A stretch of DNA of 64,000 nucleotides from Mesorhizobium sp. ZC-5 (lineage in GTDB: Bacteria > Pseudomonadota > Alphaproteobacteria > Rhizobiales > Rhizobiaceae). The stretch is taken from NCBI RefSeq assembly GCF_025753855.1, contig NZ_JAOWPT010000009.1, positions 1 to 64,000 of the forward strand. The letters run 5' to 3'. Under the pieces are notes generated by a model. It did no database searches. It was given only the letters and a program-made list of their open reading frames with translations, and was not told the DNA's origin. Both the position numbers and the translations under genes were made by a program. This document shows positions 23,472 to 40,571 of the stretch, piece by piece (the stretch's first letter is position 1; each line of letters opens with the position of its first letter).

Positions 23472-23672
23472 GGCGTTTCTCTGGAGCTGTCACGTTGTTT
23501 CGGCAAGAATGTTTCGATCGTTGCAGGGAATGAGCCGTTACGTCCAGCGCTGACACAGCCGCCGTCGATAGTTGATCGATCGTCCCGTGCAGGGCAGAGT
23601 CAAACAAGGTGACAGCACCGGGCGGTCGCATCCGTTTCCGTTTGACTCCGGCCGGAATACTTGCAAGTTTGA

Positions 23673-23690
23673 TGTCTCAATAATGAGACA
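23673..23690. promoter_or_regulatory. Operator-like dyad before the ABC operon
   Basis: TGTCTCAATAATGAGACA is a perfect 7-bp inverted repeat around ATAA. It matches the dyad at 27893 at 15 of 18 bases. It overlaps the most likely ATG (23683) of the ATPase gene, so binding would block initiation. Confidence 0.7.
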
Positions 23691-24483
23691 AATCGGCGTG
23701 CAGTCAAGAAATTTGAAACAGCAATCTGAACCATCGGCTCTTGTTGGCGTGGATTCGCTGACGAAAGTCTATCGAACGCGAGAAGGCTCGAAGGTCGAGG
23801 CTCTCTCGCCGGTGACACTCGACGTGCACTACGGCGAATTCCTCAGCTTGATCGGTCCGTCCGGCTGCGGCAAGTCGACGCTGCTCAGGTTGCTCGCCGG
23901 ACTCGAGGAACCAACCGATGGAACGATCCGCTGGCGGGACGGTGCGCCGTCGCGGGGAACGGATATCGGCTTCGTTTTCCAGGAGCCGGTTCTTCTTCCC
24001 TGGCTTAGCATCCACGACAACGTGCGCTTTCCGCTCGACGTGTTCGGCGTCGCCAGGGCCGAGGCGAACGCACGCGCAACAGACATGCTGGCACTGGTCG
24101 GGTTAAAGGACTTCGGCAGAGCTCTTCCCAAGGAACTCTCGGGAGGCATGCGCCAGAGGGCTTCGATTGCTCGCGCTCTGGTCTATCGCCCCCGACTGGT
24201 GCTCATGGACGAACCATTCGGCGCTCTCGATCTTCTGACCCGGGACCGGATGAACGATGAGTTGCTCCGGATCAAGGCCGAGACATCCGCCACGGTCGTC
24301 TTCGTCACGCATTCGATCGACGAAGCGGTTTATCTATCCGACCGCGTCGCTGTCATGTCCCCCCGCCCCGGCCGGATCAGCGCGCTCCACACGCTCGATC
24401 TTGGCTCCGACCGCAGCGAGATGCTCAAGGACACCCCCGATTTCCACCGTTGGCTGTCTCTTCTGCGGCGGGAACTGAGATGA
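23683..24483 (+). CDS. NitT/TauT-family ABC transporter ATP-binding protein
   Basis: A 266-residue ATPase of the SsuB/TauB/NrtD type: Walker A GPSGCGKS, Q-loop VFQEPVLLPWLS, signature LSGGMRQR, Walker B LVLMDEPFGALD, H-loop VTHSIDEA. The start is uncertain: ATG 23683 lies inside the dyad and has no Shine-Dalgarno sequence; GTG 23698 or a later codon could be used, since conserved sequence begins near LVGVDSLTKVY. Its stop overlaps the next gene as ATGA. It powers the transporter formed with the two permeases at 24480 and 27086 and the binding protein at 26034. Confidence 0.88.
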   Translation: MRQIGVQSRNLKQQSEPSALVGVDSLTKVYRTREGSKVEALSPVTLDVHYGEFLSLIGPSGCGKSTLLRLLAGLEEPTDGTIRWRDGAPSRGTDIGFVFQEPVLLPWLSIHDNVRFPLDVFGVARAEANARATDMLALVGLKDFGRALPKELSGGMRQRASIARALVYRPRLVLMDEPFGALDLLTRDRMNDELLRIKAETSATVVFVTHSIDEAVYLSDRVAVMSPRPGRISALHTLDLGSDRSEMLKDTPDFHRWLSLLRRELR

Positions 24484-25232
24484 GCACTCGTTCACTGCGT
24501 GCGCTCTTCATGCTTGCAACGCCGTTGCTGCTCATTGCGATATGGTGGAGTTACGTTCGTCTTTTCGACGTTCCCCGTTTCGTGCTTCCGGCCCCGTCGG
24601 ATGTTTGGTGGGCGTCTTTTGCACTTTTCCGCGACGGGACGATCTGGCCGCATTTGGCACACACGCTCGGTATCATTGCGGCCGGTTTCGGCATTGGATC
24701 AGCCCTTGGTTTCGCGCTCGGCTTCGTGCTTGGCAAGAGCCCACGCCTCGAGCGGATTGTGGGACCGTATCTGTTCTTCTTCCAGACGGCTCCCAAGATC
24801 GCCCTGGCGCCCCTGTTCATTCTCTGGTTCGGCCTCGGGCTTACCTCCCAGATCGTGCTCGTCGTATCCTTGGTCTTCTTCCCCGTCATGGCAGGCACGA
24901 TCCTCGGACTTCGCTCCGTACCAGTCAATTTCGGGTTCCTCGGTGACGTCCTCAATCTCTCAAAGCGGGATCGCTTGGTGCGGATCGAGTTGCCTTCGGC
25001 AGTTCCGGAGATTTTCGCTGGATTGAAGGTAGGCGCGGTGCAGGCAACGATTGGCGCGATCCTTGCCGAATGGCTGTCTGGCGCCCAGGGGCTCGGCTAT
25101 CTCATGGTGTTCGCCGGTACAACCTATAAAGCGCCGATGCTCTTCGCGATGGTCCTGATCACATCGCTTCTTGGGATTCTTATCTACCAGACTGTGGCCG
25201 GACTGGAGAAATGGCTGCTTTCATGGCGATGA
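24480..25232 (+). CDS. NitT/TauT-family ABC transporter permease (first)
   Basis: A 250-residue inner-membrane permease with about six transmembrane segments, including the family stretch FFFQTAPKIALAPLFILWFG and the coupling loop (LNLSKRDRLVRIELPSAVPEIFAGL). ATG overlaps the ATPase stop. A second permease of the same family at 27086 implies a heterodimeric channel, as in some transporters for pyrimidine-like or riboflavin-like ligands. Confidence 0.92.
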   Translation: MSTRSLRALFMLATPLLLIAIWWSYVRLFDVPRFVLPAPSDVWWASFALFRDGTIWPHLAHTLGIIAAGFGIGSALGFALGFVLGKSPRLERIVGPYLFFFQTAPKIALAPLFILWFGLGLTSQIVLVVSLVFFPVMAGTILGLRSVPVNFGFLGDVLNLSKRDRLVRIELPSAVPEIFAGLKVGAVQATIGAILAEWLSGAQGLGYLMVFAGTTYKAPMLFAMVLITSLLGILIYQTVAGLEKWLLSWR

Positions 25233-26011
25233 TGGACAGATCCGCAGCTTGGCCGTGGCGCGGGGGGCGGCCTCCACATCTGCCGCGTCCAGAGACGGTG
25301 CCGAAAGCGTTTCTGCTGCCCGGCGATCCCGCACGCGTCGACTTCGCATCCTCGGTGCTCCACGACTTCGTCATCGTGGGCCAGAATCGGGAGTTCCGCA
25401 TGGGCTGCGGTTATCTTGGCGATGTTCTCATAGGCGTCTGCTCCACGGGCATTGGCGGGGCATCGGCAGAAATCGCCACGGTCGAACTTGCCGGCATGGG
25501 GGCGAAATTCCTGATCCGCACTGGCGGTTGCGGCGCGTTGTCGGAAGATCTCGCTCTCGGGGATTTTCTCATCATCGATGAGGCAGTACGCAACAGTGGC
25601 GTAGCCGCTATCTATGCGCCGGATGCGGATATGCCGGTCTGCGCCGACACCGAGATCAGTGAAGCCCTGGTTCAGGCATGCGGCTTTCTTGGAGTTCCGG
25701 CCCGGCGCGGCCGGTGCCTGACGGCGGACGGCTATTACCGCGCGCAGGGCCGGCCGGTTTTCGCAGCAGGGCAGGGAAATTCGTCCCTGCTGGACGAGTT
25801 CGCGGCCGCGGGTGCCGATGCCGTTGAGATGGAGTCCGAGGTGATCCTCGCAGTTGCTGCGGTCTGCGGCGTACGGGCCGGGGCGGTTCTTGCGGTTCAT
25901 GCGCATCGGCGAAGCGATGGCTGGCTCGAAGATTATGAGAAGACACAGCACGACCTAATCAGCATCGGTGCGCAAAGTGCGGCGCACCTGATCAAGGCGC
26001 CGAACCCATAA
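25211..26011 (+). CDS. Nucleoside phosphorylase (uridine/purine phosphorylase family)
   Basis: A 266-residue PNP_UDP_1 family enzyme: phosphate-binding LLPGDPARV, the STGIGGASAEIA loop, RTGGCGAL and the nucleoside-binding motif VEMESEVI. It would split a nucleoside with phosphate into base and ribose-1-phosphate in the cytosol. The start at 25211 overlaps the permease end by 22 bases with GGAG just upstream; ATG codons at 25223, 25229 and 25232 are alternatives. The C-terminal half lacks the usual charged base-specificity segment of E. coli Udp as far as I can tell, so uridine is only a guess. Location in a transporter operon next to pyrimidine genes supports a pyrimidine nucleoside. Confidence 0.82.
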   Translation: MAAFMAMMDRSAAWPWRGGRPPHLPRPETVPKAFLLPGDPARVDFASSVLHDFVIVGQNREFRMGCGYLGDVLIGVCSTGIGGASAEIATVELAGMGAKFLIRTGGCGALSEDLALGDFLIIDEAVRNSGVAAIYAPDADMPVCADTEISEALVQACGFLGVPARRGRCLTADGYYRAQGRPVFAAGQGNSSLLDEFAAAGADAVEMESEVILAVAAVCGVRAGAVLAVHAHRRSDGWLEDYEKTQHDLISIGAQSAAHLIKAPNP

Positions 26012-26033
26012 CAAACCGACAGAGGAGAAAGTC

Positions 26034-27038
26034 ATGCAGATCCACGGAAGGCTCAACGTAGTATGGATCGTCCCGCTGCTAATGATGACGTTGTTCGTTG
26101 GCGCCATCACCGCCAGGGCCGACGAGAAGGTGACCATACAGATCGACGGCGCGGCAGTACCCTATTATCTGCCGTTGTACGTCGCCCAGAAGGAAGGCTA
26201 CTTCAAGGAACAGGGATTGGAGGTTGAATTCCTCTATGCCAATGCCGCCGACATCCTGAACAATGTCGCGGCAGGAAATGTCCAGTTTGGCTTTCCGAAC
26301 GGTGATGCGGTCATCTCTGCCCGCGCCAACGGCATTCCCGTGAAGGTTGTCCACTCGACTTATCAGCGCGGGATCGGTGCAGTGCTGTTCAAGGATGCAA
26401 GCGGCATCAAGTCTCCGGCCGACCTCGTCGGCAAGAAGGTGGCCGTGACCAGCTATGGAAGCCCGAACTATATCCAGCTTCAGGTCATGATGAGCCAGGC
26501 CGGCAAGTCGATTGATGATGTGAAAGTCGAGATCGTTGGAACCGGGGCGATCCTCGATGCGCTGAAGTCCGACCAGGTGGATGCCATCGTCTTCTCGATG
26601 CTACGCTACTATGCGTTGAAGGCCGAAGGCTTGGACGTTGGTATGATCGCCGCAGACGATTTTCTTCCGAGCCACGGTAACGTGCTCGTCACTTCGGAAG
26701 ATTATCTCGCCTCTAATTCCCAGCAAGTGAAGGGTTTTGTCACCGCCCTCGACAAGGCGCTGAAGCATATTGTCGAGGGTGATGCCGGAAAGGAAGTCCA
26801 GATGGCGATAAGGGACTACGCGCCAACCTTTGCGCCGCAGGAGAAGGTGGTAACCGAAATCATCAAGGAGGTCTTCATTAAGACCCTCTGGCAGAGCACA
26901 GATACCGAGAAGAACGGGTTCGGCTACGGAAATGTCGAATCGTGGCAGAAGACGATCGATGTCGCCGCCGAATACAAAGCAATACCGGAATCGTTTCCGG
27001 CCGCCGACCTCGTGGTCGAAAAGCCCTCAGACCTCTGA
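26034..27038 (+). CDS. NMT1/THI5-like ABC substrate-binding protein
   Basis: A 334-residue periplasmic binding protein with a signal peptide (cleavage near ITARA-DE) and the NMT1 pattern VPYYLPLYVAQKEGYFKEQGL...VQFGFPNGDAVISARANGIPVK. The family binds thiamine precursors, riboflavin, taurine-like or pyrimidine ligands. AGAGGAGA lies 7 bases before the ATG. It sits between the phosphorylase and second permease, within one operon. Confidence 0.92.
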   Translation: MQIHGRLNVVWIVPLLMMTLFVGAITARADEKVTIQIDGAAVPYYLPLYVAQKEGYFKEQGLEVEFLYANAADILNNVAAGNVQFGFPNGDAVISARANGIPVKVVHSTYQRGIGAVLFKDASGIKSPADLVGKKVAVTSYGSPNYIQLQVMMSQAGKSIDDVKVEIVGTGAILDALKSDQVDAIVFSMLRYYALKAEGLDVGMIAADDFLPSHGNVLVTSEDYLASNSQQVKGFVTALDKALKHIVEGDAGKEVQMAIRDYAPTFAPQEKVVTEIIKEVFIKTLWQSTDTEKNGFGYGNVESWQKTIDVAAEYKAIPESFPAADLVVEKPSDL

Positions 27039-27085
27039 TTTGCATGGCGCTCCGATCTCAAGACCGGAGCGCCCGGAGACACCGG

Positions 27086-27850
27086 ATGCGCGCCGTCATT
27101 TCATTCGCGATATTTGTTGCACTGTGGTGGCTGGCGGTGGCACTGCTCGGAGTACCGGAATATCTCGTGCCGTCGCCTCCGGCACTCGCAGCGAAATTCT
27201 GGTTCCTGACAACGCAGGCAGGCCTGTTTAGCCACATTCCAGTAACATTGATGGAGATCGTGATCGGATTTGTCATCGGGACGGCGGCTGGCATCGCAAT
27301 CGCGGTACTGTTCGTCCGGCTGCCAATGTTCGAAATTGTTCTCGATCCTGTCATTATTTTTGTCCAGACGGCCCCCAAGATCGCTATTGCTCCGCTGCTC
27401 CTGCTCTGGCTAGGGCTCGGGGCGTCGCCGAAGATCGTTCTGGTGGCCATTGTCACCTTCTTCCCAGTGCTGTCCAACATGCTGAGCGCGTTGCGCTCGA
27501 TCGACCCCAATATGCTCGCGCTGGCGAAGATACTGCGCTTGAATGGATGGAGGCGGCTCTGGCGGATCGAACTCCCGCAATCGCTGCCACTGCTGTTCAC
27601 AGGCATGAAAGTAGGCGTCACGCTGGCTGTCACTGCGGCAGTCATCGGCGAACTCATGGGCGCACGCGCCGGGCTTGGCTATCTGCTCAGCCTTGGGCAA
27701 GAAACCGCCGACATCGGGCTCGTGCTTGTCAGCGTTCTTCTGTTGTCATTGCTTGGCTATGGGCTCTTCCTGGCTGTCGATCAGGCAGAGCGCAGAATGT
27801 TGAGATGGCATGAAAGCGCCGTTGCGCGCGATCGCCTTTTGCTCGAATAG
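27086..27850 (+). CDS. NitT/TauT-family ABC transporter permease (second)
   Basis: A 254-residue inner-membrane permease paralogous to the one at 24480 (shared FVQTAPKIAIAPLLLLWLG and IELPQSLPLLFTGMKVG blocks). GGAGA lies 8 bases before the ATG at 27086; the longer open frame to 26942 overlaps the binding-protein gene and is not coding-like. Six hydrophobic segments are visible. It probably forms the channel together with the first permease. Confidence 0.92.
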   Translation: MRAVISFAIFVALWWLAVALLGVPEYLVPSPPALAAKFWFLTTQAGLFSHIPVTLMEIVIGFVIGTAAGIAIAVLFVRLPMFEIVLDPVIIFVQTAPKIAIAPLLLLWLGLGASPKIVLVAIVTFFPVLSNMLSALRSIDPNMLALAKILRLNGWRRLWRIELPQSLPLLFTGMKVGVTLAVTAAVIGELMGARAGLGYLLSLGQETADIGLVLVSVLLLSLLGYGLFLAVDQAERRMLRWHESAVARDRLLLE

Positions 27851-27933: not shown

Positions 27934-28863
27934 ATGACAAGCCAGTTCGAGGAAATCGGTCGACGTCTGAAAGCATACAGAATGGGTCGGGACCTCACCG
28001 CGGATGCGATCGCCGACGAGTTGGGTATCTCGCGCGCCGCAGTCTATCGCATCGAAACCGGCGGCGTGGTCAAGATCGAGACGCTCGAAAGGCTGGCCAA
28101 TGTGCTCAATACGACCGTGGCGTCCCTGCTTGGTGCGGGCGTGGAATATTATGCCAATCCGATCAGCTATTTCGAGCGCATGCGTCAGGTCGAGGGTGAA
28201 GCTGACCAGGTGGTGGCGCATTTCCCTCCCTTGTCCTACCTGCTGACCTCGGACGCGTTTCCGAAATACCTCAAGCGGACGCTTCTGGAATCCCTGCCCC
28301 CCCACATCTCTGCCAAGAGCGCTGAGCAGGAGATAGACACCATCATTTCCATCCTTGACGAGCGCAAGCAAGCAAGCCAGCGGCGGCGGTTGAGCGTCGT
28401 GAATTTCGTCAATTTGCTGGAGATCGAGCGCTGGCTGAAACTTGGAATCGTTGGCCGGTTCGACTTGTCCGGCACAGAACTTGGCGAGCGTCGCAAGGCC
28501 GCCCGCCTCGAGGTAGAGCACCTGATCACTTTGATTGAAAGCGAGCCGATGGGCATTCAGATCGGATTGATCGAGGAGGTTCTTCCGAATACCGCCTTCC
28601 AGCTGTTCCGCACCGCGGATAAGACCTATCTGGGCGTCAGTCCATTCCGTCTAGGCGGCGATCTGCCCAATATCCGCTCGGGCGTCGCGATGATGACTGC
28701 CGACATCGAGCCGGTGCGGCTCTACGAGACACTCGTCGAGAATTTGTGGCGACGTGCGCGCAAGGGCAGGGAAGCCGCCACCCTGTTGCACACCGTGCTG
28801 GATCGATCAGGCATTGCCGCTACGGCTAGGTCGACCAAGCGACGGAGTTCAAGGACAGCCTAA
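27934..28863 (+). CDS. XRE-family transcriptional regulator
   Basis: A 309-residue regulator with an N-terminal helix-turn-helix of the Cro/CI type (residues about 6-62; RRLKAY...TADAIADELGISRAAVYRIETG). The large C-terminal part (from about 85) is unrecognised and is probably the effector or oligomerisation domain. It lies 83 bases after the ABC permease gene with a dyad in the spacer, and faces pyrE tail to tail. Position and shared dyads make it the likely regulator of the ABC operon and, more tentatively, the pyr/TRAP genes. Confidence 0.9.
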   Translation: MTSQFEEIGRRLKAYRMGRDLTADAIADELGISRAAVYRIETGGVVKIETLERLANVLNTTVASLLGAGVEYYANPISYFERMRQVEGEADQVVAHFPPLSYLLTSDAFPKYLKRTLLESLPPHISAKSAEQEIDTIISILDERKQASQRRRLSVVNFVNLLEIERWLKLGIVGRFDLSGTELGERRKAARLEVEHLITLIESEPMGIQIGLIEEVLPNTAFQLFRTADKTYLGVSPFRLGGDLPNIRSGVAMMTADIEPVRLYETLVENLWRRARKGREAATLLHTVLDRSGIAATARSTKRRSSRTA

Positions 28864-28872: not shown

Positions 28873-29577
28873 TCAGGCTTCGTTGCCGAAATCCGAAATT
28901 CCGCCATGGGCAGCTGACCATTTGGCAGGTTCGTTGAGAAACTGCTCAACCTCAGCCAGAATCTTCGGCTCGAAGTGACCGCTCGATTTCGCGACCTCCA
29001 GTACATGCCACCACGTGGTAAGATAATGGAGGTGAACGCCAAGCTCGTCCATCAGTTCGCGGCTCTTGGGGAAGATGTCGTAGTAGAACAGTACGAAGCA
29101 ATGGTCGACGTTGGCGCCTGCGTTGCGTAGAGCTTGGCAGAAATTGATCTTGCTACGTCCGTCGGTGGCCAGGTCCTCGACCAGCAGGGTGCGTGCGCCA
29201 GCTGCGACTTCGCCCTCGATCTGGGCGTTGCGGCCAAACCCCTTGGCCTTTTTCCTTACATATTGCATCGGCAGCATAAGCCGATCGGAAATCCAGGCGG
29301 CGAACGGGATGCCAGCGGTTTCACCTCCCGCGACGCTGTCGATAGATTCATAGCCGATGTCCCGCACAATGGTGGCAGCCGCAAAGTCGATCAGCGATGA
29401 TCTCAGCCGCGGGTAGGAAATGATCTTTCGGCAATCGATGTAGACCGGGCTCGCCCAGCCGGATGTGAAGAAAAATGGCTTCTCGTCATAGAAGTGGACG
29501 GCCTTGATTTCGAGCAGCATCTTGGCTGCCTCCTTGGCGATCGTCTCTTTGTCGACAGGCGTATAGAGGCTGGGCAT
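28873..29577 (-). CDS. pyrE: Orotate phosphoribosyltransferase
   Basis: A 234-residue OPRT that joins orotate and PRPP to OMP in the cytosol. It has the N-terminal [18 protein letters not shown] block of rhizobial Pyr[11 protein letters not shown], the flexible-loop [15 protein letters not shown] and the PRPP motif [13 protein letters not shown]. The PRPP motif carries Arg where Gly is more usual, and a typical housekeeping rhizobial PyrE has TTAGGS here, so this is likely a second, specialised copy. GGAGAACG lies before ATG 29577, fixing the start. It is divergent from pyrK with a palindrome-rich spacer. Confidence 0.92.
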
Positions 29578-29756
29578 CGGTCGTTCTCCACCAGGTGTGC
29601 GTCGGCGACCACCGGCATGGTGGTGTCGAGTTTGGGCGCTTGTCGGATGCAAACGGCCCCTTCTGTCGGTGATGGGCCTGCTCGTCAATCCTTGTTATCC
29701 CGCGGTACAGAATTCTCCACCGTAAAAGATGCCCGTTTCGATTCAAATCCTCATCA

Positions 29757-29774
29757 TTGCGACAACTGTCGCAA
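29757..29774. promoter_or_regulatory. Perfect palindrome in the pyrE/pyrK divergent spacer
   Basis: TTGCGACAACTGTCGCAA is an 8-bp perfect inverted repeat with a 2-base centre. A related GCGAC-G-GTCGC dyad is at 29829-29839, just before the pyrK ATG. Their role as operators is inferred. Confidence 0.6.
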
Positions 29775-29785
29775 AAAAGAGACTA

Positions 29786-29803
29786 AGTCTTGCAATTGAG
29801 ATT
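29786..29803. promoter_or_regulatory. Weak match to the XRE-locus dyad
   Basis: GTCT-N6-TGAGA (29787-29801) keeps the spacing seen at 23673 and 27893 but matches only 10 of 18 bases overall. It could be chance. Confidence 0.3.
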
Positions 29804-29828
29804 GCCTTGTGTAAGGCTGTCTTTTTTC

Positions 29829-29839
29829 GCGACGGTCGC
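29829..29839. promoter_or_regulatory. Small dyad just upstream of pyrK
   Basis: GCGACGGTCGC, 3 bases before the pyrK ATG, preceded by a T-run as in the inverse of the 29757 palindrome. It occupies the place of a Shine-Dalgarno sequence, so protein or RNA structure here could limit translation. Confidence 0.4.
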
Positions 29840-29842
29840 AGG

Positions 29843-30688
29843 ATGCTCCAGAATTTGACGCTGACTAACCACGATGCACAAGAGGACTGGCGGCCCACTG
29901 TCTCGACCGAAACTGCTGTTGTGCTCAGCAACAAGGCAGTCAACGGTGAATATCGGCGGCTGGTGATGTCCTGCAGCGCGCTCGCCGCCTCGGCCGAGCC
30001 GGGCCAATTCTTCCAGCTTCTTTGTCCGGAATCTGCCGGCGAAAAGCCGTTTTTGCGCCGGCCCATGAGCGTGTACGGAATGCGAAAGGCACCGCCGGAA
30101 GTCGAATTCCTGTACAAGGTGACTGGGGCAGGCACGCGCGGACTTGAAACCCTGGTTCAGGGCGATCCTCTCGATATCTTCGGCCCTCTCGGTGTCGGTT
30201 TCAAACTCGACCTGTCATGGCGCAGCATCGCGCTTGTCGGCCGCGGAGCCGGGCTGGCGACACTGGCACCGCTCGCATCAATGGCCGCCCAAGCCGGCAT
30301 TCATGTCACCGCGATCCTGAGCGCGCGACGCCCGGACCTTTTGGTTTCCGCCGATCTGTTTCGGAACTGCGGCGCCGATGTCGTTGGCGTGACGGATTCA
30401 GAAGCCACCAGCGGTCCAGCGAACGTCGAGAAGATCCTTCGCGGGCTGATCGCCGGCCGGGGCTGCGATGCCTTTTTCACCTGCGGCTCCAGCCGCCTGA
30501 TGCGGGTCCTGCAGCGGCTCGCAGCGGAATTCGGCCTCGTCGGTCAGATCGCGATGGAGCAGCAGATGGCCTGCGGTATCGGGCTTTGCCATTGCTGCGT
30601 GCGCGACTTCAACATGAACGGTGACATCGTCAGCCGCCGCGTCTGCTGGGACGGCCCGGTCTTCGACCTCGCGGAGGCTATGCCGTGA
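29843..30688 (+). CDS. pyrK: Dihydroorotate dehydrogenase electron-transfer subunit
   Basis: A 281-residue PyrK-type iron-sulfur flavoprotein that passes electrons between PyrD and NAD. Flavin-binding FLRRPMSVYG (70-79), nucleotide-binding VGRGAGLATLAP, and [2Fe-2S] ligands Cys244, Cys249, Cys252 and Cys268 are all present (C-x4-C-x2-C-x15-C). The ATG at 29843 begins the homology; the 38 codons of open frame before it cross the palindromes. Its stop overlaps pyrD as GTGA. A PyrK means the adjacent PyrD is NAD-linked (class 1B), unlike the quinone-linked class 2 enzyme usual in alphaproteobacteria. Confidence 0.92.
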   Translation: MLQNLTLTNHDAQEDWRPTVSTETAVVLSNKAVNGEYRRLVMSCSALAASAEPGQFFQLLCPESAGEKPFLRRPMSVYGMRKAPPEVEFLYKVTGAGTRGLETLVQGDPLDIFGPLGVGFKLDLSWRSIALVGRGAGLATLAPLASMAAQAGIHVTAILSARRPDLLVSADLFRNCGADVVGVTDSEATSGPANVEKILRGLIAGRGCDAFFTCGSSRLMRVLQRLAAEFGLVGQIAMEQQMACGIGLCHCCVRDFNMNGDIVSRRVCWDGPVFDLAEAMP

Positions 30689-31635
30689 GCGTCGACCTGT
30701 CCGTCACTGTCGGAACGCTGAGGTTACGCAACCCGGTCATGCCGGCATCAGGCACATTCGCTGAAGGCCTCGATAATGTCGTCGACTTCGAGAAGCTGGG
30801 TGCGCTTGTCACAAAGACCATTACGCACGAACTGCGAACGGGCAACCCGCTGCCCAGGGTTGTCGAGCAGCCTAGCGGGCTGATCAACTCGATCGGGATT
30901 CCGTCAAAGGGGCTCGATCACTTTGTGGAACATATGCTGCCGCTTTACGCGCGCTATTCCACGCCGCTTGTTGTCAGCATTTCGGCTCCGACCGTGGAGG
31001 GTTTCGCCAACCTTGCCAGGGCAGTCTCCATCCCTGGTGTTGCCGCCATCGAAGCGAACATCTCCTGCCCCAATATCGAAGAGGATGGGAAAGCTTTTGC
31101 GATGACACCGGAATCGACGGAGCGCGTGACGTCGGCGTTAAGGAGCTCAACCGGACTTCCGCTATGGGTGAAACTCACACCCAATACCGGCGATATCGCT
31201 GCTGTCGCTCGTTCAGCCGAAAGGGCAGGAGCGAACGCCCTGGTGGTCGCGAACACGATCCTTGCGATGGCAATCGACCTGAAGACCTTCAGGCCAAGCC
31301 TCGGCAACATTCTGGGAGGCCTGTCAGGGCCGGCAGTGAAGCCGATCATCCTTCGACAAGTCTATCAGTGCGCAAAGGTTGTCGCGATACCGGTCATAGG
31401 ATGCGGCGGCATCGCCACTGCCAAGGATGCGGCGGAATTTATGCTGGCTGGCGCGACAGCGGTGCAGGTGGGTACCGCCACATTCATCCAGCCTGATGCC
31501 ATGGTTCGGATAATCGATGGAATAAAGCAGTTCTGTCTGCACCGGGACATCCCGAGAGCAAGTGATCTCGTTGGCGGACTGGTCGTGGAGGAGAGCGACG
31601 AGCCGGACATGGCCTGGATGGAGCCGGCGCAATGA
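30685..31635 (+). CDS. pyrD: Dihydroorotate dehydrogenase, catalytic subunit class 1B
   Basis: A 316-residue class 1B enzyme: FMN-site NPVMPASGTF, active-site Cys128 in EANISCPN (class 2 enzymes have Ser), KLTPN, and GCGGIATAKDAAEFMLAGATAVQVGT pattern in two halves. It interconverts dihydroorotate and orotate with PyrK and NAD in the cytosol. The direction is open: class 1B enzymes serve biosynthesis in Gram-positives and orotate breakdown in orotate-fermenting clostridia. GTG start is set by the GTGA overlap with pyrK; the stop overlaps the amidohydrolase gene as ATGA. Confidence 0.92.
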   Translation: MSVDLSVTVGTLRLRNPVMPASGTFAEGLDNVVDFEKLGALVTKTITHELRTGNPLPRVVEQPSGLINSIGIPSKGLDHFVEHMLPLYARYSTPLVVSISAPTVEGFANLARAVSIPGVAAIEANISCPNIEEDGKAFAMTPESTERVTSALRSSTGLPLWVKLTPNTGDIAAVARSAERAGANALVVANTILAMAIDLKTFRPSLGNILGGLSGPAVKPIILRQVYQCAKVVAIPVIGCGGIATAKDAAEFMLAGATAVQVGTATFIQPDAMVRIIDGIKQFCLHRDIPRASDLVGGLVVEESDEPDMAWMEPAQ

Positions 31636-32921
31636 CCGCGTCCGCAATCCGCGAGCCGCACGCCAGGCCGGCAGAATTCGCCAGGCTTACGCAGTTGTTC
31701 GAACGACTGAAGCGCTCGGCATTCGACGGTATTGGCATCAGCCGGCTTGCCTACAGTGACAAGGAATCCGAAGCGCTGGACATCATTGAGGCCGAAGCTT
31801 TGCAGATAGGGCTGACCACCGAGCGGGACGCTGCCGCCAATCTCGTTGCCACGTTGCCCGGTACGAACGAAAACCTGCCGTTCATTGCATGCGGTTCCCA
31901 TCTCGATTCGGTGCCGCAGGGAGGAAATTATGACGGCGCCGCCGGCGTCGTGGCCGCACTCATGGTGCTCGCCCGGATGAAGCAGGAGAACATCCGCCCG
32001 CGCCGGACCGTTAAACTGTTTGCTCTTCGCGGCGAGGAGAGTGCCCGGTTTGGCAAACCTTATCTCGGCTCGAGCTGCCTGTTTGGAGCGCTAAAGCCTT
32101 CCGACCTGCGGATCGCGGCGCAGAATGATAGTCGTTTGCTCGGGGACTGTATGCGCACGGTCGGCGTTGAAGTCGACAGAATCGCCCGTGGGGAAGCCCT
32201 TCTCGAGCCAAGTTCGATCGCTGCCTGGATCGAGCTCCATATCGAACAGGGCCCGGTCCTCATCGCACGCAATCTGCCCGTTGGCATCGTAACTGGCATT
32301 CGCGGCAATATCCGGCACCGCGCGGTCGAGTGCGTCGGCGAGGCGGGCCATTCGGGCGCGGTGCCGCGCTGGCTACGTCATGATGCAGTCTTTGGCATGT
32401 GCGATCTGATCGCGAATCTTGATTCGCATTGGCGTACGCTACTCGAACGCGGTCATGACCTCGTGCTCACCTCCGGCATCGTATCAACCGACTCGGAGGT
32501 GAACGCCATAGCCCGTATTCCCGAGATCGTCCGATTTGCGTTCGAGATACGCAGCCAGAGCAGGGCCACCTTGGAGGCGGCTTACAATCTGTTTTTGTCC
32601 GAGTGCGCCGCTGTCTCCAAGGAGCGCGGTGTTGCATTTCGCTTTGACGAAAGGGTCGAGGCGGCCGGGGCAGCGATGGACAAGGGTTGGGTGGAGCGGT
32701 TAACCACGGCGGCAGCAGCACTCGGTCTGCCGTCGGAAACCATTCCGAGCGGTGCCGGCCATGACGCGGCGGTGTTCGCGAACGCCGGTGTTCCTAGCGC
32801 CATGATCTTTGTGCGCAACCAGAATGGTTCCCACAACCCGCGCGAAGCGATGGAAATATCGGACCTGATCGCTGGTGTGGATGTGATGCACGCAGCAATC
32901 CGCGAGGCAGCGATGCAATGA
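31632..32921 (+). CDS. M20 N-carbamoyl-amino-acid amidohydrolase, putative ureidosuccinase
   Basis: A 429-residue metallohydrolase of the allantoate / N-carbamoyl-amino-acid / beta-ureidopropionase group. Metal ligands include His90 and Asp101 (SHLDSVPQGGNYDGAAG), Glu135/136 in RGEESARF, His in ELHIEQGPVL, and the C-terminal GAGHDA. It hydrolyses a carbamoyl-amine to amine, CO2 and ammonia. Between pyrD and pyrC the natural substrate would be N-carbamoyl-L-aspartate (ureidosuccinate), giving L-aspartate; this is inference from order. N-carbamoyl-beta-alanine (reductive uracil path) is the main alternative, but no PydA or dihydropyrimidinase gene is nearby. ATGA overlaps couple it on both sides. 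Confidence 0.85.
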   Translation: MTASAIREPHARPAEFARLTQLFERLKRSAFDGIGISRLAYSDKESEALDIIEAEALQIGLTTERDAAANLVATLPGTNENLPFIACGSHLDSVPQGGNYDGAAGVVAALMVLARMKQENIRPRRTVKLFALRGEESARFGKPYLGSSCLFGALKPSDLRIAAQNDSRLLGDCMRTVGVEVDRIARGEALLEPSSIAAWIELHIEQGPVLIARNLPVGIVTGIRGNIRHRAVECVGEAGHSGAVPRWLRHDAVFGMCDLIANLDSHWRTLLERGHDLVLTSGIVSTDSEVNAIARIPEIVRFAFEIRSQSRATLEAAYNLFLSECAAVSKERGVAFRFDERVEAAGAAMDKGWVERLTTAAAALGLPSETIPSGAGHDAAVFANAGVPSAMIFVRNQNGSHNPREAMEISDLIAGVDVMHAAIREAAMQ

Positions 32922-34015
32922 GCCCGGAAAGCATCTTCGGCCAGCTTGAGATACCGGCCATCCGGAGCCTCACGATGAGGCGCCCCGACGACTGGCATGT
33001 TCACCTGCGCGACGGCGACATGATGAAAGCGATCCTGCCCTTCACAACCGCACAGTTCGCTCGCGCAATCGTCATGCCCAACCTTATGCCGCCGATCGTT
33101 ACCACCGCCGCCGCCGAGGCTTACCGGGAGAGGATACTGATGGCGAGGCCGGCAGGCTTGGATTTCCAGCCGTTGATGACGTGCTATCTCACGGATGCGA
33201 CGCTGCTGGACGATGTCGAAGACGGTTTTCGTCGTGAGATCTGGGTGGCGTGCAAGCTCTATCCAGCGGGGGCCACGACAAATGCCGCCCATGGGGTCAC
33301 GGATCTTGCCAGGATCGCACCGGTGCTGGAGCGAATGGAAAGGATCGGCATGCCGCTCCTCGTCCATGGCGAGGTGACTGATCCGGATATCGATATCTTC
33401 GACCGCGAGAGCGTCTTCATCGATAAGGTCCTGATCCCGCTCATGAGGCGGCACCCCGGCCTGAAGATTGTTCTCGAACACGTGACGACGGAGGAAGGCA
33501 TCGCAGCCGTGCGTGAGAACGCCCCCCGGCTTGCGGCTACCATAACGCCGCATCACCTTTTGCTGAATCGCACATCGCTCTTCCAAGGCGGCCTGCGCCC
33601 CCATTACTACTGCCTGCCTGTCGCCAAGCGTGAACGCCATCGCCAGGCTCTCAGAAAGGCCGCCACGTCGGGAGACGCATGCTTCTTCCTGGGCACCGAC
33701 TCTGCCCCGCATCTGCGGGAGGCAAAGCAGGCCGAGTGCTGTTCTGCAGGCATATTCTGTGGCGCGACCGCACTTCAGACCTACGCGCAGGTGTTCGAGG
33801 AAGAGGACGCCCTGGATCAGTTGGAAGCCTTCGCTACGGTCAACGGTCCGCAGTTTTACGGGTTGCCGCTCAATGCTGGCACAATCACGCTCGAGCGGTC
33901 GGACGATGTTGTGGATTGCGCGATCGAGATAGGTGGAAGCGACGTTGTCACATTTCGCGGCGGCGAAAGGCTCGCATGGTCGATTAAGGAAGTTGCCAGG
34001 CCAGACAACACTTAG
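32918..34015 (+). CDS. pyrC: Dihydroorotase, E. coli type (class II)
   Basis: A 365-residue zinc amidohydrolase interconverting dihydroorotate and N-carbamoyl-L-aspartate. Ligands are in place: His27 and His29 in WHVHLRDG, carbamylated Lys113 in ACKLYPAGATTN, His150 and His188, and the catalytic Asp261 in GTDSAPH. It has about 20 extra N-terminal residues compared with E. coli PyrC. Start is fixed by ATGA overlap with the amidohydrolase. Rhizobia usually carry other dihydroorotase types for biosynthesis, so this is likely an extra copy for the locus. Confidence 0.92.
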   Translation: MSPESIFGQLEIPAIRSLTMRRPDDWHVHLRDGDMMKAILPFTTAQFARAIVMPNLMPPIVTTAAAEAYRERILMARPAGLDFQPLMTCYLTDATLLDDVEDGFRREIWVACKLYPAGATTNAAHGVTDLARIAPVLERMERIGMPLLVHGEVTDPDIDIFDRESVFIDKVLIPLMRRHPGLKIVLEHVTTEEGIAAVRENAPRLAATITPHHLLLNRTSLFQGGLRPHYYCLPVAKRERHRQALRKAATSGDACFFLGTDSAPHLREAKQAECCSAGIFCGATALQTYAQVFEEEDALDQLEAFATVNGPQFYGLPLNAGTITLERSDDVVDCAIEIGGSDVVTFRGGERLAWSIKEVARPDNT

Positions 34016-34024
34016 GAGTCGTAT

Positions 34025-34393
34025 ATGAGTAACAACCGACCCGTTCTTCCCCTGAGCGATGCCAGATGGCAGCGTGATCTCGCTAAACTTGGCGATTGGT
34101 TGGCCACCCAGAAGGGAGGTGTCGGGACCTTTTATGAGTTTCAGCGAAGAACCTCGGCGTTGCGGTTGGAACATCAAGGTCACGCAGCGCTCCTCAGGCT
34201 TCTTGGCGATATGGCTGGGCGGTTTGCCGATACATTTGATGGCGAGCCGCTGGACGTTTCCGTTGCAAGCGATGCTCTCGAAACGTTGGCTAGCCACTTG
34301 AGACGGGTAGCCGCTTTGAAGCCTGATTTGTGGGAGGATTATCTAGGGCTGCTCAACTTGGTCGGGATCACAGAACTCGTCCCTGACTGTTGA
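34025..34393 (+). CDS. Unknown 122-residue protein in the pyr operon
   Basis: A small soluble, probably all-helical protein (SDARWQRDLAKLGDWLATQ... and ETLASHLRRVAAL). No motif recognised, no signal or membrane segment. It starts 9 bases after pyrC with GGAG nearby (AGGAGTCGTAT then ATG), and is followed by a hairpin, so it belongs to the pyrK-D-amidase-C transcript. Could be an adaptor, inhibitor or enzyme subunit; function unknown. Confidence 0.75.
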   Translation: MSNNRPVLPLSDARWQRDLAKLGDWLATQKGGVGTFYEFQRRTSALRLEHQGHAALLRLLGDMAGRFADTFDGEPLDVSVASDALETLASHLRRVAALKPDLWEDYLGLLNLVGITELVPDC

Positions 34394-34398
34394 ACTGC

Positions 34399-34424
34399 GT
34401 GTCTGCCGGGGGCCGGGCAGACAC
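34399..34424 (+). terminator. GC-rich hairpin after the pyr genes
   Basis: GTGTCTGCC and GGCAGACAC form a perfect 9-bp stem with an 8-base G-rich loop, 6 bases after the small gene's stop. It separates the pyr genes from the TRAP genes, which may have their own promoter (34425-34489 is AT-rich). No T-run. Confidence 0.55.
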
Positions 34425-34452
34425 GATTGACTCGGTAATCTTATTGTGGATT

Positions 34453-34470
34453 AATCTCAAAAAATAGACA
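34453..34470. promoter_or_regulatory. Degenerate XRE-type dyad before dctP
   Basis: AATCTCAAAAAATAGACA matches the 23673 dyad at 13 of 18 bases with equal spacing, 20 bases before the dctP ATG. Weak: the spacer is A-rich. Confidence 0.35.
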
Positions 34471-34489
34471 ATGATAAGAGGGCGAACTG

Positions 34490-35515
34490 ATGATATCCCG
34501 TAGAAAAATTCTGAAATCGGCTGCCACAGCAGCGGCCGCCGGGCTGATGCCGAATATCGCTTTCGGCCAAGCGGCCAAATACGCCGCCAAGATCGCGCAT
34601 CTGGAGGCGCCAACACAGCCTCGTCACAAAGGCCTGGAGAAGGTCAGTGCGCTAGTGAAAGAGCGTACGGATGGTGAGGTGGAATTTACGATCTATCCGC
34701 TTTCACAGTTGGGCAATGCGCGGCAGATGATTGAGGGGACTCAGTTCGGGGCGATTGAATGCACCGTTCAGCCTGCTGCGTTTCTTGGTGGGTTCAATCC
34801 CGTCGTTTCGGTCCTCGACGTTCCTTATCTCTTTCCGTCGGATCGCCTAATTTCCCAGAAGCTGCGAGACGGACCATTTGGCCAAGCCCTGCTTGACAGC
34901 TTCGACAGCCGCGGTCTGCACGCCCTCACTGAGTGGCCGAATGGACGCAAGAGCCTGACATCGAACAAGCCGCTCGACAATCTCGAGGATCTGGCAGGTC
35001 AGAAATTCCGCGTCATGGATTCAAAGATTCTGATCGACCAGTTTGCCGCCGTCGGCGCGACTGCGGTCGCAATCAACTTCAGTGAGCTCTACACATCCCT
35101 GCAGACCGGCCTCGTGGATGGTCAGGAAAACCCGCTGGACACCATTACGACCATGAAATTCCACGAGGTCCAGAAGAACCTCGTAGTCACCGAACACGGC
35201 GCGATGGAGGATTTCGTCCTGTTCAATCCAGCTTGGTGGACGACGCTGCCCGATGGTCACAAGGCGATCATTGCAAAAACCTTCGATGAGGTTCGGCCCG
35301 AAGTCGAGAAGATGAAGGAAGAGGCGATGGAGAAGTCTCTCGAAATCATCAAAGGTGCAAATGTCAACGTGCGCATTACGGATGAAGCCGAGCGCAAAAA
35401 ACTGCGCGACGCGACGGTGGCCAAGGCTCGCGATGCCTATCAGGCCCTTGCCGGCGTCGAAGGCGAACAGGTGCTGAAGATCTACGATTCCGAGATCAAG
35501 AAGCTCGCCGGCTGA
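34490..35515 (+). CDS. dctP: TRAP transporter substrate-binding protein
   Basis: A 341-residue DctP-family periplasmic protein with a Tat-like signal (RRKILK, then hydrophobic, AFGQA). The conserved carboxylate-binding Arg is in GQKFRVMDS, and DGQENPLDTI is the family marker. TRAP proteins bind organic carboxylates through that Arg. AGAGGG lies before the ATG. Downstream of dihydroorotase genes, orotate or a related ureido acid is a plausible ligand. Its stop and the dctQ ATG overlap (TGATG). Confidence 0.92.
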   Translation: MISRRKILKSAATAAAAGLMPNIAFGQAAKYAAKIAHLEAPTQPRHKGLEKVSALVKERTDGEVEFTIYPLSQLGNARQMIEGTQFGAIECTVQPAAFLGGFNPVVSVLDVPYLFPSDRLISQKLRDGPFGQALLDSFDSRGLHALTEWPNGRKSLTSNKPLDNLEDLAGQKFRVMDSKILIDQFAAVGATAVAINFSELYTSLQTGLVDGQENPLDTITTMKFHEVQKNLVVTEHGAMEDFVLFNPAWWTTLPDGHKAIIAKTFDEVRPEVEKMKEEAMEKSLEIIKGANVNVRITDEAERKKLRDATVAKARDAYQALAGVEGEQVLKIYDSEIKKLAG

Positions 35516-36036
35516 TGGGAGGCCGGATCGTCGCTCTCCTGAGGCGGGTGCAGACTTTGCAGGGGGTATTGCTCGGTCTGCTGATGCTATCCATGACGTT
35601 CGGTTACACTGCGAACGTTCTGGTGCGCGAGGTCATACCATCACTTGCTCCCCGTCTCGCCTGGATCGACGAGATCTCACTGTTTGGCCTGGTTTGGATC
35701 GTTTTTCTGGCGCTTGGTCTCGGCCTTGAGTCGGGTCGCCACATCGGCATGCGAATGCTTCTGTCGCGCATGCCATCTCCAACGCGCAGGATCGCTAAGG
35801 CCGCCATCAACATGCTCGGCCTCCTCATCAGCGTGTACATGGTGAAGGTCGGTCTCGAGATCACGTTGTTCGTCGCCCGCAGCGGCCAGGCAAGCCCGAC
35901 ACTCGGCATCTCAGTGGCTTGGCTCTACTGGGTCGTTCCGGTTGGGTTCATGCTGCTGGCGCTGCAGTATTTTGTTGAACTGCTGGGCTGGTCAGATCGC
36001 TTCGAGCGCGAGATCGATCCCATGCATCACCTGTAA
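35515..36036 (+). CDS. dctQ: TRAP transporter small permease
   Basis: A 173-residue inner-membrane protein with four hydrophobic segments and the DctQ pattern (IDEISLFGLVWIVFLALGLGLESGRHIGM). It couples the binding protein to the large permease. The start overlaps the dctP stop by one base. Confidence 0.9.
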   Translation: MGGRIVALLRRVQTLQGVLLGLLMLSMTFGYTANVLVREVIPSLAPRLAWIDEISLFGLVWIVFLALGLGLESGRHIGMRMLLSRMPSPTRRIAKAAINMLGLLISVYMVKVGLEITLFVARSGQASPTLGISVAWLYWVVPVGFMLLALQYFVELLGWSDRFEREIDPMHHL

Positions 36037-36043
36037 TGGTCAC

Positions 36044-37321
36044 ATGGTAGTCCTGCTTTTTCTTCTTGCGGTCATGCTGCTGGCCATTGGCGCCGAGATA
36101 TTCCTCGTTCTCGGCGCTCCAGCAATCCTGACGAAGTACCTCTTCTATCCTACCATGCCCGATCTGATCATCGGACAGCGCCTGGTGGGCGGCGTGGAGG
36201 TGGTCACGTTGCTGGCGATCCCGTTTTTCATCTTCGCCGCGGATCTGATGGCGAGGGGCCGTATGGCAGCCCAACTCGCAGGGTTGTTTCGCGCGCTGGT
36301 CGGACACAGACAGGGCGGCCTTGGGCATTCAACCGTCGTCACTTGCATGGTGTTCGGAGCTGCTGCCGGTTCAGCGCCGGCCACCGTCGCAGCCATGGGC
36401 CGCGTTGCCTTTCCTGAATTACGGCGGTCCGGCTTCAGCGACCGCTTCAGCCTGGGGCTCATCGCGTCAAGTGCGGAATGTGCGCTCCTAATCCCCCCTT
36501 CAATCACCTTCGTCGTCTATAGCTGGCTTACCGGCACATCGATCGCGGCACTCTTTGCCGCAGGCATGGTAGTCGGCATCGTGCTCGGCTTGGGGTTCAT
36601 GGTGCTTGTTGCGCTGACGGCCTACCGACAGGGAATTCCGGGGGCGCCGAGGCTGGCGTGGAACGAACGTTGGTCTGCCTTCGTCGACGCCTTCTGGGCC
36701 CTGCTGATGCAGGTCATTATCCTCGTTGGCATTTTCAGCGGAGTATTCACGGCGACCGAAGCCGCGGCTGTTTCCGCCGTTTATGCGGTCATAGTAGAGG
36801 TTTTTATCTTCCGTTCGCTTTCCTGGCGCGACGTCTTCTCTGTTGCGCGAGATAGCTCGATCTCAACCGGCGTCATTTTCATCTTGCTCGCCATGGGTGC
36901 GCTGCTTGCTTACTTCATCACGCTCGCGGGCTTTGACCGGACATTGCTGGCGTTAATCCAAGAAAACAACGTGAACTGGGTCGTGTTCATGATGGGGGTC
37001 AACGTTCTGTTCCTATTGTGTGGGATGTTTCTGGATCCGAATTCGATCATGGTGATCTTCCTGCCGACCTTGTTCCCCGTCGCAACCGCCTTGGGGATCG
37101 ATCCCATCCATTTTGGTATGGTCGTGACGTTGAACGTCTGTACCGGAATGATTATGCCGCCCATCGGATTGGATCTGGCAGTGACGTCGGCTACGCTCAA
37201 TCGGCCGGTGGAAGATGTGGTCAGAGGAATCGGCCCCTTCATCACCGTCAATATCCTGGTGCTGATCCTTGTCAGCTATGTTCCCTGGTTGTCGACCTTC
37301 CTTCCAAATCTGATGTTTTAG
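36044..37321 (+). CDS. dctM: TRAP transporter large permease
   Basis: A 425-residue DctM permease with about twelve membrane segments. Family landmarks are visible: IPFFIFAADLMARG, FGAAAGSAPATVAAMGRVAFPE, LIPPSITFVVY and GMFLDPNSIMVIFLPT. ATG 36044 follows the dctQ stop by 7 bases; the longer open frame overlaps dctQ and is a shadow. It uses an ion gradient to import the dctP ligand. Confidence 0.93.
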   Translation: MVVLLFLLAVMLLAIGAEIFLVLGAPAILTKYLFYPTMPDLIIGQRLVGGVEVVTLLAIPFFIFAADLMARGRMAAQLAGLFRALVGHRQGGLGHSTVVTCMVFGAAAGSAPATVAAMGRVAFPELRRSGFSDRFSLGLIASSAECALLIPPSITFVVYSWLTGTSIAALFAAGMVVGIVLGLGFMVLVALTAYRQGIPGAPRLAWNERWSAFVDAFWALLMQVIILVGIFSGVFTATEAAAVSAVYAVIVEVFIFRSLSWRDVFSVARDSSISTGVIFILLAMGALLAYFITLAGFDRTLLALIQENNVNWVVFMMGVNVLFLLCGMFLDPNSIMVIFLPTLFPVATALGIDPIHFGMVVTLNVCTGMIMPPIGLDLAVTSATLNRPVEDVVRGIGPFITVNILVLILVSYVPWLSTFLPNLMF

Positions 37322-39315: not shown

Positions 39316-39359
39316 GAGTCCGTGCGGCAAGCTGAAGCGATCAACGTTCAACTGACAGG

Positions 39360-40571
39360 ATGAATATGATGAGCACCTCCTCTATTCCCCTCGACGTAGC
39401 CGGTGCGGAAGCGCACCTGATGCAGTTCCTTTCGGTCGAGGGCGTCACCGGCTCCGAGGCCAATATCGCGGCGGCCGTCAGTGACGCGTTGAAAGCCGTG
39501 GGCGTGCCGGCTTCGGCAATCCGCTTCGATGACGCCAATACGCGCATCCCATTGCCGACCGAGACCGGCAATCTCATCGTGGATCTGCCCGGAACGCGCA
39601 ACGGACCGAGGCTGCTCTTCTCGACCCACCTGGACACCGTGCCGCTGTGTGCCGGGGCGAAGCCTCGAAAAGAAGGCGATCGCATCGTCTCCGACGGCAC
39701 GACAGCACTTGGAGGCGACGCCCGCACTGGAGTTGCCCTTCTGGTGGTGCTTGCCGAGACGCTTATCAAGCACAAACTGCCGCATCCGCCGATCACGCTG
39801 CTTTTCACGGTACGGGAGGAGAGTGGGCTTCATGGAGCGCGCGAGCTGAATCCCGCCGAACTCGGCGGCCCGACCATGTGCATCAATGTCGATGGCCAGC
39901 TCGCTTCGGACCTGATCATAGGCGCGGTTGGGCAGGAAAACTGGGAAGTTGAGATCAAGGGCCGTGCTTCTCATGCCGGCGTTGCGCCCGAGAAGGGCAT
40001 ATCGGCAACGCTGGTCGGAGCCATTGCCCTGGCGGAGGCGCAGAACGCGGGCTGGTTCGGCAAAGTCGTCAAGCCTGACGGCCGCGGAACCAGCAATGTC
40101 GGGATTTTTGGCGGAAAGGACGGAAAGCCTGCAGGCGATGCAACCAACGTCGTCACCGACTACGCCTTCATCAAGGGAGAGGCACGTAGCCCTGAAGCAT
40201 CGTTCGCCAAGGCAATTGCCAAAGGATATGAAGAGGCGTTCACAAAGGCAAAAGCTGCGGTCACCGACCATGAAGGTGACACGGCTCAGGTCAAATACAG
40301 CCACGTTACGTCCTATCCGCCGTTCAAGCTCGACGAAAACAGCCCGGTAGTGAAGCGCGCGATCAAGGCGCTGGGCATTCTCGGTATCGAGCCGAAGACC
40401 TTATTCTCGAATGGCGGCCTCGACGCCAACTGGCTCGACAAACATGGCATCCCCACCATCACCATCGGTGCGGGCCAGGCCGAGATCCATACGATCAAGG
40501 AATATGTGAACCTTGCCGAGTACGAGAAAGGCTGCCGTCTCGGCATACTTATGGCAACATTGGAAGACTAG
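39360..40571 (+). CDS. M20-family peptidase (peptidase T-like)
   Basis: A 403-residue M20 metallopeptidase: first motif STHLDTVPL, second LGGDARTGVA, REESGLHGA with catalytic Glu pair, and C-terminal His in GAGQAEIHT. Resembles peptidase T and the PepT-like group. It would hydrolyse a dipeptide or N-acyl amino acid brought in by AbgT. ATG 39360 or 39369 are both possible. Forms an operon with abgT. Confidence 0.88.
   Translation: MNMMSTSSIPLDVAGAEAHLMQFLSVEGVTGSEANIAAAVSDALKAVGVPASAIRFDDANTRIPLPTETGNLIVDLPGTRNGPRLLFSTHLDTVPLCAGAKPRKEGDRIVSDGTTALGGDARTGVALLVVLAETLIKHKLPHPPITLLFTVREESGLHGARELNPAELGGPTMCINVDGQLASDLIIGAVGQENWEVEIKGRASHAGVAPEKGISATLVGAIALAEAQNAGWFGKVVKPDGRGTSNVGIFGGKDGKPAGDATNVVTDYAFIKGEARSPEASFAKAIAKGYEEAFTKAKAAVTDHEGDTAQVKYSHVTSYPPFKLDENSPVVKRAIKALGILGIEPKTLFSNGGLDANWLDKHGIPTITIGAGQAEIHTIKEYVNLAEYEKGCRLGILMATLED

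Follow-up and report, generated by a model that had tools for sequence, protein, structure and literature searches.

A probable orotate utilisation operon in Mesorhizobium sp. ZC-5 carries the only orotate phosphoribosyltransferase gene found in the genome

The stretch of Mesorhizobium sp. ZC-5 DNA analysed here (contig NZ_JAOWPT010000009.1, positions 1 to 64,000; 64,000 nucleotides, hereafter the window) harbours a compact pyrimidine gene cluster. It starts with a helix-turn-helix (HTH) regulator gene and a divergent pyrE, followed on the plus strand by pyrK, a class 1B pyrD, an M20 amidase gene, pyrC, a small open reading frame (ORF) and dctPQM, which encode a tripartite ATP-independent periplasmic (TRAP) transporter (Table 1). 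An earlier note on this DNA had named the pyr, amidase, small and dct genes and their arrangement, and reading frames and family-model matches placed all of them where it had put them. The pyrE frame spans 28873-29688 on the minus strand, with its ATG probably at 29577, and the pyrK frame 29729-30688, with its ATG probably at 29843; approximately 265 bases separate these two likely starts. The dctM frame spans 35942-37321 and probably starts at 36044. Successive genes overlap by 4 bases at pyrK/pyrD, pyrD/amidase and amidase/pyrC and by 1 base at dctP/dctQ, while the small ORF starts nine bases past pyrC. The NCBIfam scan gave no match for dctQ, whose name rests on its place and on its relatives. 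A consensus scan for promoters and terminators from position 29550 on revealed no excess (2 and 7 seen, compared to 2.6 and 6.9 expected from shuffled sequences).

Table 1. Features of the locus and of related sites. Coordinates are positions in the window unless a contig is given; G000 is the window's own genome, and C3, C4 and C20 (in the table or the text) are contigs of it.
Feature	Position	Strand	Basis
HTH regulator gene (XRE type), likely to control the locus	27934..28863	+	Pfam HTH_31 and HTH_3 above cut-off
pyrE, orotate phosphoribosyltransferase	28873..29577	-	NF001729, 388.7 bits (cut-off 245)
Divergent control region, pyrE/pyrK	29578..29842	.	Bounds inferred from likely start codons
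pyrK, class 1B electron-transfer subunit	29843..30688	+	PF10418, 42.1 bits (cut-off 23.9)
pyrD, class 1B dihydroorotate dehydrogenase catalytic subunit	30685..31635	+	NF005574, 342.5 (269); TIGR01037, 300.6 (270)
M20 carbamoyl-amidase, candidate ureidosuccinase	31632..32921	+	TIGR01879, 291.8 (204)
pyrC, dimeric (E. coli-type) dihydroorotase	32918..34015	+	TIGR00856, 432.8 (292.95); HVH motif
Small ORF, 122 codons, five-helix family without a name	34025..34393	+	No family above cut-off
dctP, TRAP solute-binding protein, probably for orotate	34490..35515	+	TIGR00787, 223.5 (175.05)
dctQ, TRAP small permease	35515..36036	+	Place in the cluster; relatives have homologues between dctP and dctM
dctM, TRAP large permease	36044..37321	+	TIGR00786, 377.2 (268.45)
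Internal deletion of native TIGR01367-type pyrE	G000 C3:158380-158650 (L191)		Flanks syntenic to two same-genus genomes
ABC transporter set with nucleoside phosphorylase (25211-26011)	23572..27850	+	Outside the operon proper

The imported substrate was approached through DctP. Its best sequence match in the PDB was 4nn3 (425.6 bits, compared to 181.9 for the next best), and the AlphaFold model (mean predicted local distance difference test score, pLDDT, 83.1) had the same structure as its best fold match (60% identity, template modelling (TM) score 0.94 by target length). DctP also passes its family model. 4NN3 was solved with orotic acid bound, and the passage on it in PMC11668362 describes an Asn in place of the acidic residue of related structures and a Lys in place of their second Arg. 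The window DctP has Asn76 and Lys154 at those positions by our own reading of the alignment; the PMC11668362 passage gives no numbering for this protein. Lys154 and Arg174 were found in 93/93 distinct DctP relatives. Orotic acid is among the TRAP ligands in a list in PMC5812351. These likenesses suggest that the DctP/TRAP system probably serves for orotate.

The enzyme genes were assigned from family models. PyrD passes class 1 models, its nearest PDB entries are the Lactococcus-type PyrD chains 5ue9 and 1ep1, and it has a PyrK partner with the Fe-S domain PF10418 encoded by an overlapping gene, as in class 1B; PyrK itself fell under the cut-off of every NCBIfam PyrK equivalog (best 120.3 bits vs. 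314). PyrC scored above the cut-off of TIGR00856 and has an HxH metal motif, which places it among the dimeric (type II) dihydroorotases. The amidase belongs to the hydantoinase/carbamoylase M20 family (TIGR01879) and reached no equivalog cut-off (AllC 220.3 vs. 597.75; ErtE 290.6 vs. 520). It fell just under two models, allantoate amidohydrolase (396.6 vs. 399) and Zn-dependent hydrolase (407 vs. 461), and models with these names matched 52/52 of the operon amidases scanned (E ≤ 1e-30).

Among 76 distinct operon amidases, R224, N226, R228 and R249 were invariant, position 246 was Arg in 67 and Lys in 9, and position 295 was Arg in 72, Lys in one and Ile in three. By these alignments residue 246 is Met and residue 294 is Asn in the solved relatives 3n5f, 1z2l, 5tp4 and 5thw and in another amidase of the same genome, encoded on contig C4; in the operon amidases position 294 is Ser, Thr or Ala. 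The extra basic residues would suit a substrate that carries a further carboxylate, carbamoyl-aspartate for example. Genomic context and these subfamily residues together make the subfamily a candidate ureidosuccinase (EC 3.5.1.7). Likeness to ErtE was also considered as a sign of an acidic substrate and was dropped, as the ErtE model gave a higher score with the C4 amidase (339.4) than with that of the window (290.6).

Next, we analysed how far the set is conserved. A search for DctP across 199 same-family genomes (E ≤ 1e-60) gave matches in 18, including the window's own, and the 17 other loci were extracted for holding DctP. Gene presence was scored with hidden Markov models built from these same-family loci. 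Together with dctP, the genes pyrK, pyrD1B, amidase and HTH were present in 17/17 of them, the small gene in 15, pyrE in 11 and pyrC in 10; two of the loci (L053 and L057) start at a contig end and lack some genes for that reason. Named genomes were then scanned with an alignment of the 18 DctP proteins, and the best 80 of 529 loci were kept. In 62 of these 80, pyrK, pyrD1B and the amidase gene lie beside dctP ("core" loci). All 62 contain dctQ and dctM, 56 the HTH gene, 53 pyrE, 51 the small gene and 29 pyrC, and 55 of them have the TRAP genes on the strand of pyrK and upstream of it. The named loci span Rhizobiales, Rhodobacterales, Burkholderiales and others. Three of the 80 are partial, namely two from Desulfovibrio (dctPQM-amidase-pyrC-pyrE) and one short Devosia contig. 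The co-occurrence in 17/17 family loci and 62/80 named loci indicates that the set is not due to chance.

Related sets also occur on plasmids. The amidase matched 89 plasmid records in a tblastn search, 53 of them from Klebsiella, where the order is a major facilitator superfamily (MFS) gene followed by pyrK-pyrD1B-amidase-pyrC-HTH-small. A megablast search with the Klebsiella stretch gave 55 records, all from Klebsiella and at least 99% identical, 53 of them over at least 80% of the stretch. Milk is named as the source in 9 of those 53, a number that was not set against an expected one, and many others are human clinical or wastewater isolates. The genes lacY and lacZ adjoin the cluster in 5/5 stretches opened (L212 and L215-L218). 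None of the E. coli genomes in the collection gave a match. Sets of this kind, some without an adjoining TRAP, were also found on Roseomonas and Nitratireductor plasmids. The Klebsiella cluster shares homologous pyrK, pyrD1B, amidase, pyrC, HTH regulator and small protein with the window set; it differs in being plasmid-borne and in having an MFS gene in place of the TRAP genes, and pyrE is absent from the opened stretches. Orotate is abundant in cow's milk, and the position of this cousin beside lac suggests that orotate may be used together with lactose, for example in milk.

The small ORF encodes a predicted five-helix protein (model pLDDT 90.5). A single-sequence search found it in 11/199 genomes, nine of the hits being weak (E 5e-6 to 0.01) and several lying in the cluster or beside a pyrE, while a profile search with a threshold of 18 bits gave 67 hits in operon loci. 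An alignment of 50 members has no invariant column and one nearly invariant Phe. At most 5 of the 50 matched any one Pfam or NCBIfam family, and no PDB relative was found by sequence (best E 0.18) or by fold (none at E ≤ 0.001). The family matched by five is XXXCH_domain (best E 0.0027). A toxin function was rejected, as Pfam Ntox27 reached 18.3 bits against a cut-off of 24 and was matched by only 1/50. In one genome (G061, L044:4603-6570) the amidase and the small protein share a single open frame of 656 codons from stop to stop, the sole case among 84 amidase-bearing frames and 67 small-protein hits. This hints that the two proteins work together, although it concerns one genome and could reflect a lost stop codon. 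The presence of a homologue in the TRAP-free Klebsiella set (42 and 67.5 bits) suggests that the small protein probably belongs with the enzymes rather than with the transporter.

The rest of the genome was searched for other pyrimidine genes. A class 2 PyrD is encoded on C20 (TIGR01036, 373.2 vs. 200), and the pyrKD pair is therefore extra, as had been predicted. A cluster for reductive uracil breakdown lies on C4 (PreA, 729.1 vs. 335) and contains, by ORF reading, PreT, an aminotransferase, a carbamoyl amidase (C4:508510) and dihydropyrimidinase. Since this cluster has its own amidase, a role of the window amidase in the uracil pathway is not the simplest reading. Two class I dihydroorotase homologues scored above the TIGR00857 cut-off. 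The one at C3:509840 (L008) adjoins a pyrB-like gene and is missing the HxH motif, and is probably a non-catalytic PyrB partner. The other, at C3:177048, matched NF006559 (807.6 vs. 482), has the motif QVH and is 90% and 83% identical to genes of two same-genus genomes (G147 and G059, respectively). In neither of these did the search at E ≤ 1e-60 reveal such a DctP, and the sharing of the gene with such genomes argues that the C3:177048 enzyme works. The expected second dihydroorotase was thus found in the form of class I homologues, one without HxH and the other with QVH, but no second dimeric PyrC was found in the genome. Class 2 pyrD, pyrB, the class I homologues and a separate uracil cluster with its own amidase indicate that the pyrK-pyrD-amidase set is extra.

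By contrast, pyrE is not an additional copy. A search of the genome with the window PyrE found nothing but itself at E ≤ 0.01. PyrE of this type occurs in 97/199 same-family genomes (E ≤ 1e-20). The same-genus genomes G059 and G147 carry instead a TIGR01367-type PyrE (227.6 and 218.9 bits, cut-off 150.25), and no PyrE of that type was found above the cut-off in the Mesorhizobium sp. ZC-5 genome. By our own reading, the TIGR01367-type pyrE of G147 has a rel/spoT-like gene on one side and a short ORF, then an acpS-like gene, on the other. Both of its flanks align to C3 at 83-88%, and approximately 120 bases separate them there, compared to approximately 620 in G147; start-like and last-codon pieces survive. 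An assembly gap was rejected as the explanation, as 9 kb of contiguous sequence without N runs across the site. The native pyrE is internally deleted. Because of this deletion, and as no second orotate phosphoribosyltransferase (OPRT) was found, the cluster pyrE probably also serves de novo synthesis. The earlier note had taken pyrE for a mere salvage branch and had expected the whole set to be dispensable, with a second pyrD, pyrC and pyrE elsewhere. The first view does not hold; the second is right for pyrD, right for dihydroorotase with the caveat given above, and wrong for pyrE.

In a tree of 95 PyrE hits (identical sequences merged), the window PyrE falls in a 13-leaf clade (support 0.997), in which 11 of the other sequences belong to operon loci and the last to another genome. 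Two genomes of one genus (G098 and G172, 100% and 99% complete) have a single PyrE of the window's type, within the operon, and no TIGR01367-type match, indicating that dependence of this kind may have evolved repeatedly. The genome with the closest operon (G064) keeps both PyrE types. In a further genome without DctP of this type at E ≤ 1e-60 (G018, C14:13092, L059), a PyrE 72% identical to the window's contains two in-frame TGA stops and is perhaps a decayed copy.

Taken together, the locus very probably serves orotate utilisation, with import, breakdown to aspartate and a PyrE branch. This agrees with the orotate uptake and breakdown operon proposed in the earlier note, given a DctP nearest to an orotate-bound structure, a class 1B PyrD with its PyrK and an amidase kept alongside in many genomes. 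The TRAP transporter would bring in orotate, PyrK-PyrD would reduce it to dihydroorotate with NADH, and PyrC would open the dihydroorotate ring to give N-carbamoyl-L-aspartate. The amidase would then convert N-carbamoyl-L-aspartate into aspartate, CO2 and ammonia, an irreversible step that would pull the reversible ones toward breakdown. In the PyrE branch, orotate would be converted into orotidine monophosphate, toward UMP.

Several observations weigh against this interpretation. Position 76 of DctP is Asn in only 59/93 relatives (Gln in 21, other residues in 13), and Arg295 of the amidase is replaced by Ile in 3/76. The set is missing beside the TRAP genes in 15/80 named loci. Three of these (L111, L146 and L159) end inside the cluster, but five others (L115, L127, L150, L151 and L178) are without it despite nearly 10 kb on each side. 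An amidase-profile search of the genomes behind 12 of these 15 loci found an operon-type amidase elsewhere in three (577-644 bits), intermediate ones in three (446-462 bits) and generic amidases only in the remaining six (184-252 bits). The TRAP-only loci and the generic-amidase genomes indicate that TRAP systems of this family are not invariably accompanied by breakdown; no common alternative path was noticed when the neighbouring genes of seven TRAP-only loci were read by eye. Moreover, 33/62 core loci have no PyrC of this type, so that ring opening must come from elsewhere there.

A more far-reaching version is that the operon is an acquired orotate island whose pyrE displaced the host OPRT, and whose small protein, a novel factor working with the amidase, stops the breakdown enzymes from draining the carbamoyl-aspartate, dihydroorotate and orotate made by the cell for nucleotide synthesis. 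We regard this as rather unlikely; if true, a breakdown cluster would now carry an essential synthesis step. It is also unlikely that the locus scavenges orotate for pyrimidine salvage, with TRAP and PyrE at the centre and the other enzymes limiting overflow. PyrE is present in 53/62 core loci, some genomes have the TRAP without the set, and E. coli and Salmonella are known to draw on orotate, taken up through DctA, as a pyrimidine source (PMC13328217), all of which would suit salvage. Yet in 62/80 loci (the core loci, by definition) PyrK and PyrD are retained together with an amidase by which carbamoyl-aspartate would be destroyed, and PyrE is missing from 9/62 core loci, where none of this type was found, and from the Klebsiella set.

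Improbable, too, is an amidase acting on another carbamoyl compound (carbamoyl-beta-alanine, allantoate or a hydantoin product) within a locus that degrades a related ring such as dihydrouracil or a substituted hydantoin. The models closest to the amidase, matched by all 52 scanned, bear the names allantoate amidohydrolase and Zn-dependent hydrolase, which points that way, but no equivalog cut-off was reached, the amidase accompanies PyrD and an orotate-type DctP, and a separate amidase at C4:508510, beside PreA, PreT and dihydropyrimidinase, belongs to the uracil path. An extra biosynthetic operon using NAD+ in place of quinone is very unlikely: the biosynthetic names of pyrK, pyrD, pyrC and pyrE and the probable use of the cluster pyrE in synthesis after loss of the native gene would favour it, but the cluster has no pyrB or carAB (pyrB lies on C3), the amidase would drain an intermediate, the nearest structure to the transporter's binding protein binds orotate, and this PyrC is absent from 33/62 core loci.

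Two further gene groups flank the cluster. The ATP-binding cassette (ABC) set upstream is possibly a nucleoside-supply module; the best model for its phosphorylase is uridine phosphorylase, under the cut-off (139.7 vs. 280.3), and PNP and NMT1 homologues occur in 5/62 core named loci. Similar ABC/phosphorylase sets were seen beside the orotate operon in three same-family loci (L053, L055 and L057); in two of them a further gene of the HTH regulator's family was also present. Directly after the locus, positions 37765-40571 encode an AbgT-family transporter and a PepT-like M20 peptidase, possibly for acylated amino acid uptake and unrelated to orotate. At the start of the window, a single open frame of 2179 codons (63-6602) would encode a very large protein.

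Returning to orotate utilisation, such breakdown is known from clostridia (Clostridium / Zymobacterium oroticum), where it proceeds through dihydroorotate dehydrogenase, dihydroorotase and ureidosuccinase. The same order of reactions, with a class 1B dehydrogenase, a dihydroorotase and a ureidosuccinase, would be expected from the window locus. The set described here differs in occurring in Proteobacteria and in its linkage to a TRAP transporter, pyrE, an HTH regulator and a small protein. C. oroticum is listed under class 1B in the relevant part of PMC10395836. Reductive uracil breakdown (PreTA, dihydropyrimidinase and beta-ureidopropionase) follows the same chemistry of reduction, ring opening and carbamoyl removal with homologous dehydrogenase and amidase families, but here it has a separate cluster on C4, whose amidase, with Met246 and Asn294, is unlike the operon set. 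Desal_2161, the protein of 4NN3, resembles the window DctP in the identity, TM score and Asn/Lys features given above but was solved as a binding protein only; the two other Desulfovibrio loci have no pyrKD in the run. The Vetting 2015 paper, reportedly the one behind 4NN3, may already discuss Desal_2161 and the genes around it.

A pathway of this type is already known. As far as the open-access literature searched can tell, the novelty seems to lie in the occurrence of the gene set in aerobes, of which no description was found there, in the ureidosuccinase-candidate subfamily, in the small protein and in the take-over by pyrE. An importer, three enzymes, a regulator and a small protein would form a portable set distributed across several groups of Proteobacteria. 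Its amidases would provide a candidate sequence family for carbamoyl-aspartate hydrolase, at present matching models named allantoate amidohydrolase or Zn-dependent hydrolase. Finally, as the cluster pyrE is apparently the sole OPRT gene of Mesorhizobium sp. ZC-5, calling such a locus accessory would mis-predict essentiality.

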